A stretch of DNA of 64,000 nt from Ruegeria arenilitoris (lineage in GTDB: Bacteria; Pseudomonadota; Alphaproteobacteria; Rhodobacterales; Rhodobacteraceae), in NCBI RefSeq assembly GCF_013032855.1, contig NZ_WQDA01000003.1:248001-312000 (forward strand), given 5' to 3'. This document shows, piece by piece, positions 25,023-33,841 of this stretch (position 1 is its first letter; each line of letters opens with the position of its first letter). The position numbers and the translations under genes are program-made. The notes under the pieces are model-generated. The model was not told the DNA's origin and searched no databases. It was given only the letters and a program-made list of their open reading frames with translations.

Positions 25023-26435
25023 TCAGTTCAGGTCTTCCAGCAGCCGACCGTGCTTGCGGGTTTCTGCGATCACGTCGCCGAATGTCTGCATACCGCGCGC
25101 AGCCAGCATCGGCAGCATGCGCACCAACGCTTCAGCCGTCGCAACCGCATCCCCCAAGGCCGTATGGCGGAGCGTCTCGGGGATTTCCACGCCCAGTCTT
25201 TCGCACAAAGCGTCGAGCGTATGGGTTTCACTGGCGCCGAATAGAACCGCGGACAGCAGAACCGTGTCCAGGATGGGGTGATCCCACGTCACTTCCATGC
25301 GCTTGGTATGACGGCGCAGAAACGCCATGTCGAATGGTGCGTTATGCGCCACGATCACGGCATCACGGGCGAAGTGGTGGAACATGCGCCCGGCTTGCGC
25401 GATATCGGGCGCGTCCTGCACCATACGGTTACTGACCTTGTGAACCTTGGTCGAAGCGGGTGGGATCGGAATGCCCGGATTGACCAGCGTGTCCAGCCGC
25501 TCGCCCTCGACGATGCGCCCCTTGACGACACGGACGGCACCGATCTGCACGATCTCGTCCTTGTGCGGCAGCAAACCGGTGGTTTCGGTGTCGAAGACCA
25601 CAAAGCACAGTTGCGATAGCGGGCGGTTTTCGAACGCCTCGTCGCCTGGGGTGTCCAGAAGATCGAAATCATAGACCAGAGGGCGCGCGGCCTCTGGCGG
25701 AATGCGGGCGACGCTGTCTTCGAAGATCAGCATATAGCCCGGCGCATCGCCCAGCGGTTTCATGCGTGCCGTGTAGGTTTGGCGCCCGTCCACGCTGGCG
25801 AGGGTGCAATAGACATCCATGCCGGTTTTCCCCAGCTTCTCATAAGCGTCCAGCAGAGGTTTGCGTTCGAGATAGTCGAACAGCGAGGCGTTCAAGCGGG
25901 GATGGGCGATCTGCGCCAGAACCTCGGCGGCCTGCGCGTCGTACAGAACGATCTGGTGGTTTGGCCCCGCCAGCAGCATCGCGACCGGGATCTCGGACAG
26001 AAGCGCGGTCAGACGTTCTTTCTCTGACGCCAGATGCGCGGTTTCGGCGGCAACGGCTTCGGCGGTGGACAGGGCGGTGGTGGCCAGTCGTTCGGCAAGG
26101 CTGGCGGCGGCGGGGGCCAGATCACCCAGATAGCGTGCCGCCTGCAGGTCAAGATCGGTATCCACCCCCGCATGTGCACGCGCACGCAGCTGCGCCGACA
26201 GGCGTTCGATCGGTTTGGCCACGTTGTCGTCGAACAGCAGCCAGACACCAGCGACCAGCCCAAGCAAGCCAAACGAGATCAGCAGGCCGCTGAACACGAA
26301 GGCGCTGGTCATGTCCGCGGGATCGGCCCGGCGCAGGCCAAGCCAAAGCGCGATCAGAGTGATGGCGATGCCACCCGCGGCAAGCAAGCAGAAGAACAGA
26401 AAAATTCTCAGGCGCAGGCTCAGGCGGGTCAGCAT
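25023..26435 (-). CDS. Membrane-anchored PAS-DEDDh 3'-5' exonuclease
   Basis: This 470-residue protein is built like a sensor but ends in a nuclease. Two membrane helices (about 11-33 and 45-68) precede a HAMP-like linker (69-122), a coiled region, a PAS-like domain (about 145-245) and a DnaQ-type exonuclease (275-445). All five DEDDh catalytic residues are present: Asp282 and Glu284 (FDTET), Asp369 (HNAPFD), His424 and Asp429 (HTALGDA). The substrate is unknown and could be nucleic acid or a nucleotidylated protein. It is encoded 2 bp after a small membrane protein and downstream of the DUF294 protein and acetate symporter. Confidence 0.87.
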   Translation of the reverse strand: MLTRLSLRLRIFLFFCLLAAGGIAITLIALWLGLRRADPADMTSAFVFSGLLISFGLLGLVAGVWLLFDDNVAKPIERLSAQLRARAHAGVDTDLDLQAARYLGDLAPAAASLAERLATTALSTAEAVAAETAHLASEKERLTALLSEIPVAMLLAGPNHQIVLYDAQAAEVLAQIAHPRLNASLFDYLERKPLLDAYEKLGKTGMDVYCTLASVDGRQTYTARMKPLGDAPGYMLIFEDSVARIPPEAARPLVYDFDLLDTPGDEAFENRPLSQLCFVVFDTETTGLLPHKDEIVQIGAVRVVKGRIVEGERLDTLVNPGIPIPPASTKVHKVSNRMVQDAPDIAQAGRMFHHFARDAVIVAHNAPFDMAFLRRHTKRMEVTWDHPILDTVLLSAVLFGASETHTLDALCERLGVEIPETLRHTALGDAVATAEALVRMLPMLAARGMQTFGDVIAETRKHGRLLEDLN

Positions 26436-26437
26436 GG

Positions 26438-26956
26438 TTAGGCCTCACAAGTAGCGGAGACCACCGGATCATCCTGGCCAACCGGCACCCAATCGGCACC
26501 GACCAGACGCCCGTCATCCGAGAACTCGGCCCCATCGGCCAGACTTGCCCGGCTGTATTCGGCGCAGTTCACCGCGATCGGCATCTTGGATACCGGCGCC
26601 CAGCGGCCAAAGAAGTACAGGTCGATCAGGCGCTGATCCGGCACCTGCGCATTGGTCCGCAACGAGGCCGTATCGACGGCCGCGAACCGGTCGACATACG
26701 GCACCGCATAGGTCCAGGGGCGATAGAGCGCGCGGCTTTCGACCTCCTGCACGACGGTCAGGCCCTCGGGCAGGGCGTCACGGGTGCGGTCGTACCACGA
26801 ATACTCGCTGATGATCGTGACTGCGATCATGCCCAAACCGGCCGCAACCGGAGCCGACCATTTCGGCAGGCGGCCACCGGTCAGCCGGTTCAAACCCATC
26901 ACGAGGCCCGCGATGGCAAAACCCGCAAAGATCGTGCCGATCAGCTCAAGAAACAT
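26438..26956 (-). CDS. Conserved small membrane protein of the DUF294/exonuclease module
   Basis: This 172-residue protein has two N-terminal hydrophobic segments (about 4-22 and 34-50) with a short linker (NRLTGGRLPKWSAP), then an extracytoplasmic region of about 120 residues with two cysteines (NCAEYS near the middle and SATCEA at the end) that could form a disulfide. I recognise no family. It sits between the DUF294 nucleotidyltransferase (30-bp gap) and the exonuclease (2-bp gap), so it probably belongs to their pathway, perhaps as a periplasmic sensing or docking part. Confidence 0.75.
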   Translation of the reverse strand: MFLELIGTIFAGFAIAGLVMGLNRLTGGRLPKWSAPVAAGLGMIAVTIISEYSWYDRTRDALPEGLTVVQEVESRALYRPWTYAVPYVDRFAAVDTASLRTNAQVPDQRLIDLYFFGRWAPVSKMPIAVNCAEYSRASLADGAEFSDDGRLVGADWVPVGQDDPVVSATCEA

Positions 26957-26986
26957 CTTCCTCCTCCGTTCTTCCTGCCGGGGTCT

Positions 26987-28810
26987 TTATCCCAGCATCC
27001 CCTTGCCGTGCCCGACCGCGGATTGCATCGTCTTTACCACGACAAACGCGTCCCGAAGATGACTTCGCTCAAAGTCCGACAGTTCCGACGGCGCAAGATA
27101 GTTGTCTGGCTTGTCGCCATTCCTGATCTGTTTGACCTGATGGTTCAACCGGGTTTCCGCGATCAGGTCATAGGCATCCATCAGGTCCCGCGCGCCAGAC
27201 GGGCTGAGCACCCCGGCTGCCTCGGCGGCCTTGAGGCGCGCGCGGGTGTTCACCTCGGTCAATTCACCCTGCAGGCTGTAGACGCGGCCCAGATCGACCA
27301 CCGGGACCACGCCGTTGTGTTTGAGATCCAGCGTGTTGCGATGCTCGCCCGAGCGGATCGTGGCGATCCCGCGCAGCAGGCCCAGCGGCGGCGTGTGCTT
27401 CAGAGAATTCGAAATCATGTGCGCCACGAAGATCGAGTTGGCCCGCGCCGCGCGCAGGGTTTCGGCCTGCAGGTCGGAAAACAGCTCGAACCGGCCGCCG
27501 ATGGGGCGCAAGTCGAACATGACCGAGGCCAGCATCTGCGCCTCGGGGTTGGGCTTGGCGATCCAGCCGTTGAAATAGTCGCGCCAGACCCGGACCGGCT
27601 GCCGCCAGCGCGGATTGGTCGCCATCATGTCGCCGGGGCAATAGAAATACCCGCAGGTATCCAGCCCGCCGGACACGAATTTGGCCAGCGCCTCGAAATA
27701 GGGCAGGTCGGCATCGGTGACGCTGTCATCCAGCATCAGGCAATTGTCCTGATCGGACACGCCCGTCTGCTCCTGCCGCCCCTGCGAGCCGCAGGCCAGC
27801 CAAAGATAGTGGACGGGCGCCGGGCCGAGTTTCTGCTCGGCCAGCGCCAGCAGCCGGCGCGTCGCGGCGTCAGCGATGTCGGTGATCAGGCGGGTGACGA
27901 TTTCGTGCCGGTTGCCCGCCGCCACCAGTTGCACCAGCAGGTTCGGGATCTCGGCCGTGACCGCGGCCATCTCGGTCGCCGACCCGGCCTGCGCGATGCG
28001 GCCGACCAGCTCGGCCGAGCTGACGGCCTGGAACCGGGTCAGGTCGGTCTGGGTGACCATTCCGACCAGACGCCCACCCTCGGTGATGGGGATATGGCCG
28101 ATACCGCGTTCCAGCATCGCGTGCAGCACGTCCGAGCCGATGTCGCCGGGCGACAGGGTCAGCGGGTCCGGGGTCATGATCTGTGACACCGGGGTCGTCG
28201 GGGGCAGGGCGCCCGCCACGACCTGGCCCGACAGGTCCCGAACCGTGGCAATGCCGCGCAACGCGCCGCGCTCTGTGATGCAGACAGACGAAATGCCCCG
28301 GTCGCGCATCAGGCGCGCGGCTTCCTGAACGGTCGTGTCCGGGGTGCATGTGGCCGGCTTGCGCGCCATCAGGGTCTCGACCCGGGTGGTGGCCAGTGAT
28401 TGCTGTTCGGGCCGTGCAGGGCGGGCCCGGTTGAAGAATTTGGCGACGACGACGTGACGCTTGAGCAGGTCGGAAAACAGGTCGGTGGGGATAATCAGCA
28501 GAACCGAGGGCGCGTCAGCTGTTGCTGTGGTCACCGCGCGCCCGTCGCGCATCAGACCACGCTCGCCAAACGAGTTGCGCAGGCCCAGATGGGATACGAC
28601 CGCGCCGTTTTCGTCGGTGATCTCGACCTGGCCTTCGTAGATGATGAACAGGCCGGGCAACTGCGCGCCACGGCGATAGAGGACGGCGCCCTTTGCGATT
28701 TCGCGCGCTTCGATCCGGGCTGCGATGTCGGCCAGTTCCTCGACCGGCAGCGCGTCATAGGGGTGCACGGATTTCAGAAACCGGGTGATCTGATCAGGTG
28801 AAAGCGCCAT
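26987..28810 (-). CDS. cNMP-binding/CBS/DUF294 putative nucleotidyltransferase
   Basis: This 607-residue cytosolic signalling protein has a cyclic-nucleotide-binding domain (about 15-125) and two CBS repeats (145-265). A DUF294 nucleotidyltransferase domain (275-450) and a DUF294 C-terminal helical domain follow. The GlnD-like active-site motif is intact: Gly341-Ser342, Gly344-Arg345 and the metal pair Asp353/Asp355 (GSQGRQEQTGVSDQDN), with Asp433 as a likely third carboxylate (MFDLRPIGG). It resembles the uridylyltransferase half of GlnD. It follows the acetate symporter gene and may nucleotidylate a transport or metabolic protein in response to adenine nucleotides. The target is unknown. 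Confidence 0.85.
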   Translation of the reverse strand: MALSPDQITRFLKSVHPYDALPVEELADIAARIEAREIAKGAVLYRRGAQLPGLFIIYEGQVEITDENGAVVSHLGLRNSFGERGLMRDGRAVTTATADAPSVLLIIPTDLFSDLLKRHVVVAKFFNRARPARPEQQSLATTRVETLMARKPATCTPDTTVQEAARLMRDRGISSVCITERGALRGIATVRDLSGQVVAGALPPTTPVSQIMTPDPLTLSPGDIGSDVLHAMLERGIGHIPITEGGRLVGMVTQTDLTRFQAVSSAELVGRIAQAGSATEMAAVTAEIPNLLVQLVAAGNRHEIVTRLITDIADAATRRLLALAEQKLGPAPVHYLWLACGSQGRQEQTGVSDQDNCLMLDDSVTDADLPYFEALAKFVSGGLDTCGYFYCPGDMMATNPRWRQPVRVWRDYFNGWIAKPNPEAQMLASVMFDLRPIGGRFELFSDLQAETLRAARANSIFVAHMISNSLKHTPPLGLLRGIATIRSGEHRNTLDLKHNGVVPVVDLGRVYSLQGELTEVNTRARLKAAEAAGVLSPSGARDLMDAYDLIAETRLNHQVKQIRNGDKPDNYLAPSELSDFERSHLRDAFVVVKTMQSAVGHGKGMLG

Positions 28811-28918: not shown

Positions 28919-30703
28919 TCAGTGGTCCTGAGCCGCGCCCGCACCACGGGGAATGCGCACGCTTTCGACCAGATCCTTGATCTCCTGCGGGGTTTCCTTG
29001 GTCATGCCGGCAACCACATAGGCGACGCCGAAGTTGACCATGGCGCCGATCGCACCGAACGAGGTCGATTTGATCGGACCCAGCAGCGGGTCTGCATCGG
29101 TGAACGAGTTGGTGCCCGGAATGAACAGCCAGCCCTTGTGCAGGAAGATGTAGACCAGGGTGACGGTCAGACCAGCCAGCATGCCCGCGACCGCGCCGGT
29201 GTTGTTGATGCGGGTCGAGAAGATCCCCATCATCAGCGCCGGGAAGATCGAGGCCGCCGCCAGACCGAAGGCCAACGCCACGGTTTGCGCCGCAAATCCC
29301 GGAGGGTTGAGGCCCAGATAGGTGGCAACCACGATGGCCACGGCCATTGCGATCCGCGCCGCCAGAAGCTCGCCCTTTTCCGAGATGCTCGGGTTGATCG
29401 AGCCCTTGATCAGGTCGTGCGACACCGCCGACGAAATTGCCAGCAACAGGCCCGCAGCGGTCGAAAGCGCGGCCGCAAGACCACCGGCCGCGACCAGACC
29501 GATCACCCAACCCGGCAGGTTGGCGATTTCGGGGTTGGCCAGAACCAGGATGTCGCGGTTGAACTTGGTCAACTCGTTGCCGACCCAGCCCTTTTCTTCG
29601 GCAAGCGCCTGCATGTCGGCATTCTTGTCGTTGTAGTACTGGATCTTGCCGTCGCCGTTCTTGTCTTCCCAGTCCAGCAGGCCGGTTTTCTGCCAGGTGG
29701 CCATCCAGTCATACCGGGCATCGTTGTCGATCTGCTCCAGCGAAACAGCGCCACCTTCGATGCCGCCGTTCGGCCACATCATGTCGGTGATGTTCAGACG
29801 GGCCATGGCACCAACCGCGGGGGCGGTCAGGTACAGCAGAGCGATGAACACCAGCGCCCAACCGGCCGACCAGCGCGCGTCCGACACTTTGGGAACGGTG
29901 AAGAAGCGCATGATGACGTGCGGCAGGCCGGCGGTGCCGATCATCAGCGACAGGGTGAACAGAACCATGTTCAGCGTGTTCGAATGATGAGCGGTGTATT
30001 CCGCAAAGCCCAGCTCGGCCACGATGGCGTCCAGCTTGGTCAGCAGCGGCTCGCCACCGGCGGTGTCGCCGAACAGGCCCAGGGCCGGGATCGGGTTGCC
30101 GGTCAGCTGCAGCGAGATGAAGATCGCCGGAATGGTGTAGGCGGTGATCAGCACGCAGTACTGAGCGACCTGGGTATAGGTCACGCCCTTCATGCCGCCG
30201 AACACCGCATAGGCAAACACGACGCCCGCGCCGATCAGCAGACCGGTGGTGTTCGACACTTCCAGAAAGCGGCCAAAGGCCACGCCCACGCCGGTCATCT
30301 GGCCGATCACGTAGGTGACCGAGGCCACGATCAGACAGATCACCGCCACGACGCGCGCGGTCTGGCTGTAGAAACGATCGCCGATGAATTCGGACACGGT
30401 GAACTTGCCGAACTTGCGCAGATAGGGCGCAAGCAGAAGCGCCAGCAGCACGTAGCCGCCGGTCCAGCCCATCAGGAACGAGCTGTTGTCATAGCCGGTA
30501 AAGGCAATCAGGCCCGCCATCGAGATGAACGAGGCCGCCGACATCCAGTCTGCTGCCGTGGCCATGCCGTTGGTGACCGGGTGAATGCCGCGTCCGGCGG
30601 CATAGAATTCCGATGTGGATCCCGCGCGGGCCCAGATCGCGATGCCGATGTAGAGCGCAAAGGACGCGCCCACAAACAGCAGGTTGATGGTAAACTGATC
30701 CAT
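28919..30703 (-). CDS. Sodium:solute symporter, VC_2705 family (probable acetate/monocarboxylate uptake)
   Basis: This 594-residue protein of the SSS family has about 13 membrane helices and typical core motifs (ADWMSAASFISMAGL near 51, FTVSEFIGDRF near 101, AFGLAAASIFPALMMGIF later). It co-occurs with a DUF4212 small subunit, as in ActP/YjcH-like pairs, and with acs downstream of the same promoter region, so acetate is the likely substrate. A loop of about 90 residues (303-395) contains an EF-hand-like stretch DKNGDGKIQYYN at 347-358, suggesting calcium binding. It lies 15 bp after the DUF4212 gene. Confidence 0.88.
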   Translation of the reverse strand: MDQFTINLLFVGASFALYIGIAIWARAGSTSEFYAAGRGIHPVTNGMATAADWMSAASFISMAGLIAFTGYDNSSFLMGWTGGYVLLALLLAPYLRKFGKFTVSEFIGDRFYSQTARVVAVICLIVASVTYVIGQMTGVGVAFGRFLEVSNTTGLLIGAGVVFAYAVFGGMKGVTYTQVAQYCVLITAYTIPAIFISLQLTGNPIPALGLFGDTAGGEPLLTKLDAIVAELGFAEYTAHHSNTLNMVLFTLSLMIGTAGLPHVIMRFFTVPKVSDARWSAGWALVFIALLYLTAPAVGAMARLNITDMMWPNGGIEGGAVSLEQIDNDARYDWMATWQKTGLLDWEDKNGDGKIQYYNDKNADMQALAEEKGWVGNELTKFNRDILVLANPEIANLPGWVIGLVAAGGLAAALSTAAGLLLAISSAVSHDLIKGSINPSISEKGELLAARIAMAVAIVVATYLGLNPPGFAAQTVALAFGLAAASIFPALMMGIFSTRINNTGAVAGMLAGLTVTLVYIFLHKGWLFIPGTNSFTDADPLLGPIKSTSFGAIGAMVNFGVAYVVAGMTKETPQEIKDLVESVRIPRGAGAAQDH

Positions 30704-30718: not shown

Positions 30719-31003
30719 TTATTCTTCTTCGACGCCGTATTCGGCATCCAGTTTGTTCATGCGCCAGGCGTAGAAGAAGATCAGCGCCAGAAAGACCAGG
30801 ATCGATCCCTGTTGCGCGAACCAGAAGCCCAGGTCGGTGCCGCCGACGGCGATGCCCGACAGCAACGGGCGCAGCAGAATGCCGAACCCGAAAGACACCA
30901 GCGCCCAGATGATGAGGCTGATGTAGATGAGACGCAGGTTTGCCTGCCAATAGCCCTTGTCGGACTCGGCAGTCTGCGCGGAGTTTGTTGAATTATCCGC
31001 CAT
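30719..31003 (-). CDS. DUF4212 small membrane subunit of the symporter
   Basis: This 94-residue protein has two membrane helices (about 24-44 and 56-80) and the DUF4212 signature YWQANLRLIYISLIIWALVS. It ends in a cytosolic tail LDAEYGVEEE. It is the partner always seen with VC_2705-type symporters, comparable to YjcH with ActP. The start at 31003 has a GGAGG site, while a longer upstream frame has none. The charged tail with its single tyrosine is a conceivable regulatory site. Confidence 0.87.
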   Translation of the reverse strand: MADNSTNSAQTAESDKGYWQANLRLIYISLIIWALVSFGFGILLRPLLSGIAVGGTDLGFWFAQQGSILVFLALIFFYAWRMNKLDAEYGVEEE

Positions 31004-31185: not shown

Positions 31186-31869
31186 TTACCGCATCGCGTC
31201 GCCCACGATGCTTTCCAGGCCACGGGCGATCTGATCGATCTGCCCCATGGCATCCAGTTTTCTGAGTACGCCGCGATCCTTGTAGTAGTCGATCAAAGGC
31301 GCGGTTTGTTCGTGATAGGCCTCCAGCCGGGACGCCACGGTTTCGGCATTGTCATCGGCGCGGCGGCTGAATTCGGTGCTGCCGCACTTGTCACAAACAC
31401 CGTCCACCTTCGGCTGCTTGTACTGATCGTGGTAGCCTTCACCGCACATTGCGCAGGTGTAGCGTCCGGCGATCCGGGTGACCATCTCGGCGTCCTCGAC
31501 CTCGAGGCTGATGGCCGCATTCACCTTCTGCCCGTTTTCGGCCAGCAGCTTGTCCAACGCTTCGGCCTGAACCGTGGTACGGGGAAACCCGTCCAGGATG
31601 ACACCGCACGCGCAATCGGGCTCGGCAATGCGATCGCGCAGGATTGCGATGACGATGTCGTCGCTGACCAGGTCGCCGGCTTCCATCACTGCTTTCGCGG
31701 CCTTTCCGGCCTCGGTTCCGGCAGCAACCGCGGCGCGCAGCAGGTCGCCCGTGCTGAGTTGCACAAGGCCGAATTTCTGTTCCAGCATTCGCGCCTGTGT
31801 GCCCTTCCCGGCGCCCGGAGGGCCGAGAAGGATCAGGACAGCGGGCTTTGTGATTGTTTCAGCCTGCAT
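31186..31869 (-). CDS. adk: Adenylate kinase with zinc-type lid, adjacent to acs
   Basis: This 227-residue enzyme catalyses ATP + AMP to 2 ADP. It has the P-loop GPPGAGKGTQ, the AMP-binding segment (STGDLLRAAVAAGTEAG) and DGFPRT. The long lid has four cysteines (CAMC and CDKC), as in zinc-binding adenylate kinases. It begins 7 bp after the acs stop, with its ribosome site GAGGG spanning the stop region. AMP made by acetyl-CoA synthetase would be recycled directly. It is not in a ribosomal-protein operon, where the alphaproteobacterial housekeeping adk usually lies, so it may be a paralogue. Confidence 0.92.
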   Translation of the reverse strand: MQAETITKPAVLILLGPPGAGKGTQARMLEQKFGLVQLSTGDLLRAAVAAGTEAGKAAKAVMEAGDLVSDDIVIAILRDRIAEPDCACGVILDGFPRTTVQAEALDKLLAENGQKVNAAISLEVEDAEMVTRIAGRYTCAMCGEGYHDQYKQPKVDGVCDKCGSTEFSRRADDNAETVASRLEAYHEQTAPLIDYYKDRGVLRKLDAMGQIDQIARGLESIVGDAMR

Positions 31870-31876
31870 CACGCCC

Positions 31877-33841
<1,965 letters not shown>

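Follow-up and report, generated by a model that had tools for sequence, protein, structure and literature searches.

Why should a sensor-bearing nucleotidyltransferase (NTase) and an exonuclease share an operon with genes for acetate uptake? The question is posed by a stretch of Ruegeria arenilitoris DNA of 64,000 nucleotides, hereafter the window (assembly GCF_013032855.1, contig NZ_WQDA01000003.1, positions 248,001-312,000), in which a DUF294 protein and a DEDDh exonuclease are encoded beside an acetate-type symporter. A sequence-only reading of the window had suggested that the first protein attaches nucleotides to, and the second removes them from, the symporter, its DUF4212 subunit, acetate-CoA ligase (Acs), or adenylate kinase (Adk), by analogy with GlnD. 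We find that the unit kept by evolution is the DUF294-DEDDh pair and not the whole operon, a point which that reading underrated. We tentatively interpret the pair as a reversible nucleotidylation switch, in which a writer resembling GlnE and DrrA and a DEDDh eraser would act on the neighboring transporter or its partner; we put the chances of this a little short of even.

Pairing of DUF294 and exonuclease genes

Of 299 genomes sampled from the phylum, 228 have a match to PF03445 (DUF294) at an E value of 1e-3 or better, many of these matches being weak. Around 100 strong matches from 79 genomes, regions no longer than 14.6 kb were collected: the first 80 listed, with the window's own left out, and 20 selected manually. 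A DEDDh profile derived from these same loci places an exonuclease domain downstream on the same strand in 88 of the 100. The domain starts within 450 bp of the DUF294 gene in 75 loci and farther away in 13, chiefly where the exonuclease has a long N-terminal half, often with a gene for a 172-aa protein in between. The other 12 loci have an exonuclease on the opposite strand (2) or none (10). An earlier count of the 100 loci, by the ends of open reading frames (ORFs), gave 83 downstream, 4 upstream, 2 opposite, and 11 without; in the 4 "upstream" cases the start called for the exonuclease ORF reaches into DUF294, and L123, counted among the 11, does have an exonuclease immediately downstream, a divergent one. 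Spacing is tight: 62 of the 83 gaps do not exceed 19 bp, and in 20 the genes overlap by 4 bp, as is typical of translational coupling. In five genomes that together amount to about 23 Mb, 34 PF00929 exonuclease genes were counted, paired ones included; this is a density of about 1.5 per Mb and therefore a chance of about 2% per 14-kb region. At 88 of 100 loci, the linkage of the two genes lies far beyond chance.

A motif scan of named genomes provided a second set of at least 120 loci, each of at most 8 kb, with 123 DUF294 ORFs; 80 of 120 of these loci enter the counts of phyla, architectures, and transporters in reach and the tree discussed below. An exonuclease lies within 450 bp on the same strand of 76 ORFs (69 downstream, 7 upstream) and elsewhere on that strand of 10; it is on the opposite strand in 3 cases, and none is seen for 24 ORFs and for 10 others whose locus ends early. 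The lower share is explained in part by the inclusion of other architectures. Pairs are present in isolates of Bacteroidota (Flavobacterium, Maribacter, Polaribacter, and, in reversed order, Pontibacter) and Bacillota (Bacillus and Paenibacillus), as well as in metagenome-assembled genomes named Sulfurovum, Nitrospiraceae, Acidobacteriaceae, Desulfobulbaceae, and Intrasporangium, where contamination is possible. The pair is old and recurs across phyla.

Whether the partner is present varies with architecture. Greedy gene calling retained 95 DUF294 genes of the first 100 loci and 69 of the second set. Among those labelled as having a cyclic nucleotide monophosphate (cNMP) domain and with room downstream, the exonuclease is present in 127 and absent in 12, versus 6 and 13 for other architectures (Fisher p 2.3e-8). 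The window's own family was followed through 149 genomes, with E-value thresholds of 1e-60 for the exonuclease (73 genomes) and 1e-15 for DUF294 (74 genomes): 72 genomes have both, 1 the exonuclease only, 2 DUF294 only, and 74 neither (p 4.5e-39). In 71 of the 72, the two genes are linked on one strand within 8 kb, with the exonuclease downstream in 70; in the last, they are on different contigs.

The proteins have also diverged together. Distance matrices of 83 DUF294/exonuclease pairs correlate with an r of 0.885. For 26 pairs in 12 genomes with multiple pairs, r is 0.954 versus a mean of 0.122 (maximum 0.939) when partners are swapped within genomes, and none of 5000 swaps reaches the observed value. 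Paralogous pairs co-diverge, each writer retaining its own exonuclease. The pairing is well supported, and we hold it very probable that the two proteins act together.

Active sites and folds of the two enzymes

The DUF294 protein consists of a cNMP-like domain (residues 36-119), two CBS domains (about 142-262), an NTase domain (287-423), and a C-terminal domain (460-600). Pfam recognizes cNMP_binding, two CBS, DUF294 (6.2e-47), and DUF294_C (2e-47), with PF03445 and PF10335 scoring 159.4 and 161.1 bits against gathering cut-offs of 21 and 22.5. Both kinds of sensor domain named by the sequence-only reading are borne out, and so is its intact active site: GSxGR (341-345), D353, and D355 are present in the window, and across 101 proteins (the window's and 100 others) G341, S342, and R345 never vary, and D353 and D355 are each found in 100. 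D433, kept in 96 of the 101, may be the third catalytic acid, which is a guess. Glutamate is usual in the cAMP-binding motif; it is present in the window (E83) but at that column in only 13 of 101 sequences, and cyclic AMP (cAMP) was rejected as the ligand.

An AlphaFold2 model of the DUF294 protein (pLDDT 91.9, pTM 0.62) resembles the N-terminal half of Escherichia coli GlnE (VIA Z 27.0, 330 residues aligned, 4.2 Å), its C-terminal adenylylation half (VIA Z 26.7, 304 aligned, 2.8 Å), and Legionella DrrA (VIA Z 24.7, 295 aligned, 3.5 Å). These matches span the NTase and C-terminal domains, and CBS and cNMP structures are matched as well; among the 50 matches listed, the three that cover the NTase part are the GlnE and DrrA chains. 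The modeled fold is that of protein-AMPylating and de-AMPylating chains, although a common fold does not demonstrate function. In GlnD, the analogue first put forward, one chain also contains an HD hydrolase domain and ACT domains. The Pfam matches of the DUF294 protein up to an E value of 0.01 include neither family, so GlnE and DrrA are the better analogues.

Other sensors occur in this protein family. DUF294 enzymes with Cache and PAS sensors replacing cNMP, and with no exonuclease close by, are seen in L100, L106, L169, L185, and L189; L106 was assigned by its likeness to L100, and CBS is also present in L169 and in one of the two DUF294 chains of L185. A fusion of writer and eraser in one chain was looked for in the 100-locus and 120-locus sets, and none was found: the long DUF294 chains are Cache-PAS forms (L100, L169, two in L185, and L189), ordinary cNMP-CBS forms (L164 and L150), and, in L119, by our reading, a probable extension into a wrong reading frame upstream.

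The exonuclease matches Pfam RNase_T (PF00929; 2.2e-36 at residues 279-436, 126.3 bits against a cut-off of 24) and, as first noticed from the window, has the full DEDDh set of D282, E284, D369, H424, and D429. Among 84 exonucleases (the window's and 83 paired ones), D282, E284, and H424 are invariant, and 83 retain D429. At position 369, 39 sequences have Asp and 45 have Glu, a variability that could not be foreseen from the window; about half of the paired enzymes therefore have an unusual second motif, in which the position is still acidic. A small control of unpaired DEDDh proteins has Asp there in 10 of 10 (30 fetched PF00929 loci gave 17 usable frames, 13 of them unpaired and 10 of these alignable). 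In the paired exonucleases of the L031-L130 set, the nearby Asn 365 is kept in only 15.

The description of the exonuclease as a membrane PAS protein fared less evenly. Two strongly hydrophobic 19-mers, starting at residues 11 and 50, agree with transmembrane (TM)-like segments. Pfam finds no PAS match in the window exonuclease itself; a homologue in L047 has PAS_9 and PAS_4 matches above cut-off, and the order of strands and helices at about 150-240 in the model is PAS-like by our reading. As a general clue to function, the membrane and PAS setting fails: of the 83 exonucleases that lie downstream, 70 are plain proteins with a length of 205-286 aa, too short for the N-terminal half. Membrane anchoring as a general property was rejected, that half being present in only 14 of 100 loci. 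Longer exonucleases, of 655-803 aa, in which some 200 extra residues precede the DEDDh domain, are found in L047, L050, L054, L059, L074, L082, L197, and L198; they resemble the layout of sensor kinases with an exonuclease as the catalytic part, and their PAS matches are weak in L050, L197, and L198.

The fold of the exonuclease domain is of the DnaQ/PolC/RNase T type, closest to PolC, DnaQ, DinG, ExoX, and RNase T. All of these are nucleic-acid enzymes, and nucleotidyltransferases acting on RNA exist; both facts would suit a pair that edits RNA ends, where nucleotides added by DUF294 at the 3' end (for example, of a tRNA) are trimmed by the DEDDh enzyme, like tRNA by RNase T. We consider this quite unlikely, given that the listed structural matches covering the NTase are GlnE and DrrA chains with NTase and C-terminal domain, and that the recurrent identified neighbors are mainly transporters, DUF4212, and acs. 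Very unlikely, in our view, is a system in which the DEDDh enzyme degrades a small nucleotide signal, either an oligonucleotide or a nucleotidylated metabolite, produced by DUF294: sensor domains suit a signaling role and DEDDh enzymes that degrade short RNAs exist (Orn), but the large GlnE-like DUF294_C domain is present in 9 of 9 DUF294 proteins scanned with Pfam (the window's and eight others).

The partner itself could also be the acceptor. MNT protein nucleotidylates and silences its HEPN RNase, and on this model DUF294 would nucleotidylate and silence its own exonuclease, a controlled RNase or DNase that alters metabolism. The tight gene coupling and partner-specific co-divergence agree with such an arrangement, as do the membership of DUF294_C in the Pfam clan of HEPN and KNTase_C (PMC3710099) and the role in mRNA decay proposed for the Pseudomonas putida exonuclease pp_0353 (excerpts of PMC9927547). 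We judge it unlikely nevertheless: no Tyr of the exonuclease domain is conserved in 80% of the 84 sequences, nor is any Ser or Thr except within the active-site motif, so no fixed acceptor is seen, and half of the exonucleases carry E at motif II.

Transporters and the operon in the window

Transporters are often neighbors. In the window's family, a VC_2705 symporter is present in 70 of the 72 genomes with the pair versus 5 of the 77 others, and 68 of these 70 have it upstream, on the same strand and no more than 3 kb from the NTase domain. In a quick maximum-likelihood tree of 157 DUF294 proteins, linkage to acs is scattered (5/5 changes), and one clade of 31 gammaproteobacterial proteins (support 99) contains all 19 that are linked to a gene for a BCCT (betaine/choline type) transporter. 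This gene lies within 1 kb of DUF294, downstream on the opposite strand in 12 cases, upstream on the same strand in 5, and downstream on the same strand in 2; one of the 19 (L086) lacks the exonuclease. BCCT-adjacent pairs are those of L045, L048, L049, L051, L057, L058, L063, L064, L067, L070-L072, L092, L093, L096, L132, L146, and L192. Sodium/solute symporters (SSF) and BCCT transporters have the LeuT fold in common.

Some of the targets first suggested are not supported. Acetate enzymes such as Acs and Adk are unlikely to be universal targets because one gammaproteobacterial clade has the pair beside BCCT transporters, and the tail tyrosine of DUF4212 is Y in 23, F in 14, and H in 12 of 51 sequences, with H or F in several close relatives of the window. 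The most likely target would be the neighboring transporter or its partner and not Acs or Adk, but neither kind of gene is in reach of some pairs, which are unaccounted for.

The operon itself is as the sequence-only reading had it. Its genes were placed exactly, with the exonuclease two genes after DUF294, and Pfam and NCBIfam confirm symporter, DUF294, and exonuclease genes in an acetate-type operon with acs, adk, and DUF4212 alongside (Table 1, in minus-strand order).

Table 1. Genes of the operon, with positions in the window
Feature	Position	Strand	Basis or remark
Acetate-CoA ligase (acs)	31877..33841	-	TIGR02188
Adenylate kinase (adk)	31186..31872	-	1 of 2 strong adk matches in the genome
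DUF4212 small symporter subunit	about 30719..31003	-	TIGR03647, PF13937
VC_2705-family sodium/solute symporter, probable regulated transporter	28919..30703	-	TIGR03648
DUF294 protein, 607 aa, proposed writer	26987..28810	-	Pfam, residue conservation, AlphaFold2, fold match
172-aa protein, one TM-like segment	26438..26956	-	between DUF294 and exonuclease genes
Membrane-anchored DEDDh protein, 470 aa, proposed eraser	25023..26435	-	Pfam RNase_T

The symporter scores 818.9 bits with TIGR03648 (cut-off 320.75) and the small subunit, whose start we chose at the MADNS methionine, 110.8 bits with TIGR03647 (cut-off 26.05). The genome has a single DUF294 match. Its other strong adk match is at G000:C7:18686-19321, and the copy between the acs and symporter genes may recycle AMP produced by Acs. 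The 172-aa protein has no Pfam and no NCBIfam match; a similar ORF occurs in 17 of the 100 fetched loci, mostly window-like ones. Residues 347-355 of the symporter form an EF-hand-like loop, DKNGDGKIQ (window 29639-29665, minus strand), and a similar loop is present in 29 of 42 symporter relatives from the fetched loci; a calcium or metal site in an acetate-type symporter would be worth examining.

A possible nucleotidylation switch and its relatives

Published work on Pseudomonas homologues provides phenotypes. The excerpts of PMC9927547 describe pp_0354-pp_0353 of P. putida as an operon and report that the exonuclease mutant shows delayed growth on pyruvate while the DUF294 mutant is normal. 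They also report that deletions of the exonuclease and of actP-I share the same pyruvate defect with normal growth on 20 mM acetate, which speaks for a link to the transporter, and that homologues adjoin actP in PAO1. In other sources, likewise excerpts, ErdR binds the pp_0354 promoter and acetate induces pp_0354 (PMC8402216), and PA3232-PA3235 are up about 16-fold on propionate (PMC9765439). The ErdR result, together with the DUF294 deletion without phenotype, would fit mere co-regulation, in which an acetate-controlled operon keeps together a sensor protein and a nuclease of the ordinary kind that have no common substrate. This we regard as distinctly unlikely, since many loci that have no acetate genes within reach retain the pair, its co-divergence is paralogue-specific, and its co-occurrence is near-perfect.

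In the nucleotidylation switch that we prefer, the DUF294 enzyme would be gated by its cNMP-like and CBS domains, with adenine nucleotides perhaps as the CBS ligand, and would move a nucleotide from a nucleoside triphosphate onto a protein, in the manner of GlnE and DrrA. Its DEDDh partner would hydrolyze the resulting phosphodiester and free a nucleoside 5'-monophosphate, a cut chemically identical to that of 3'-5' exonucleases in nucleic acid; in the window's group of alphaproteobacteria, this eraser would be fixed in the membrane. The target would be the acetate-type symporter in the window and the BCCT transporter in one gammaproteobacterial clade. If the target is inactive when left modified, loss of the exonuclease would mimic loss of the transporter, as on pyruvate, and loss of the writer would be neutral. 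On that condition the P. putida phenotypes are compatible with the switch; a neutral writer deletion is not in itself evidence for it. The switch is the best fit because it joins a writer of AMPylase fold, a near-constant partner of a phosphodiester-hydrolyzing type, and a transporter that is often adjacent. Support exists for the genuine evolutionary pair, for both active sites being kept, and for the AMPylase fold of the writer; the tail tyrosine, Acs or Adk as a general target, and the membrane and PAS setting as a general clue are not supported.

Several observations weigh against the switch. Among the most serious, SodA was not de-AMPylated by RNase T, which is itself a DEDDh enzyme, and RNase E was inactive too (excerpts of PMC12663964); an eraser role is therefore not a general DEDDh property. 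Equally, no biochemistry was found for either enzyme in open-license PMC papers. The excerpts of PMC9927547 report no growth defect on acetate, succinate, or pyruvate for the P. putida DUF294 deletion and none on acetate or succinate for the exonuclease deletion, and deletion of Pflu5625 in P. fluorescens had no phenotype. Over half of the paired exonucleases carry E in the second motif. Of 139 cNMP-labelled DUF294 genes with room downstream, 12 lack the exonuclease, including L100 and L106 (Cache-PAS) and L087 and L150 (exonuclease on the other strand). A gene for the symporter, DUF4212, or Acs is within reach in fewer than half of the exonuclease-bearing loci: 41 of the 83 in the first set and 16 of the 51 in the second. 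Finally, a search of the NTase profile A6 against Protein Data Bank (PDB) chains returned no GlnE or DrrA chain up to an E value of 10.

Extended to its full width, the proposal is that bacteria widely control secondary transporters by reversible nucleotidylation, with a GlnE-like writer gated by sensors, a dedicated DEDDh eraser recruited from the nuclease fold, a transporter swapped between lineages (acetate-type SSF or BCCT), and eraser variants with Glu for the second Asp. We consider this wider form rather doubtful. The Pseudomonas operon, its acetate regulation, and a predicted nucleotidylation by the DUF294 protein are already in print; in the open-license PMC papers we found no writer/eraser proposal for the pair and no reported substrate of a DUF294 enzyme. 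Few AMPylation erasers are known (excerpts of PMC12663964). If the proposal is true, every such writer has its own eraser, and many DnaQ-like "exonucleases" do quite a different job. Transporter control by nucleotidylation would then be testable in P. putida KT2440, an ordinary laboratory strain for which a deletion mutant of each gene is already available.

Known systems resemble the pair in different parts. The Pseudomonas pairs (pp_0354-pp_0353, PA3232-PA3235, and Pflu5625) are of the same kind, with acetate two-component control and a place beside actP in PAO1; they differ in that the symporter is ActP with DUF485/YjcH, and in the excerpts of these papers the two genes are handled separately. 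In the MNT-HEPN toxin-antitoxin system the partner is HEPN, whereas that of DUF294 is RNase_T. SelO and RNase Z provide the precedent of a nuclease that takes AMP off proteins (excerpts of PMC12663964), but the writer is a pseudokinase and the eraser a moonlighting metallo-hydrolase of another fold. DrrA/SidM and SidD, which act on Rab1 in Legionella infection, combine an AMPylase of DUF294-like fold with a separate eraser enzyme (SidD: excerpts of PMC12663964); that eraser has a phosphatase fold, and the system is injected and host-directed, whereas the DUF294 pair looks like housekeeping. GlnE shares the NTase and helical C-terminal domain, is the top fold match with both of its halves, and belongs to a system that includes AMP removal (excerpts of PMC12663964). 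It has two NTase domains in tandem, the first of which removes AMP, whereas the window protein has a single PF03445 stretch, cNMP and CBS sensors, and a hydrolase encoded by a separate gene.

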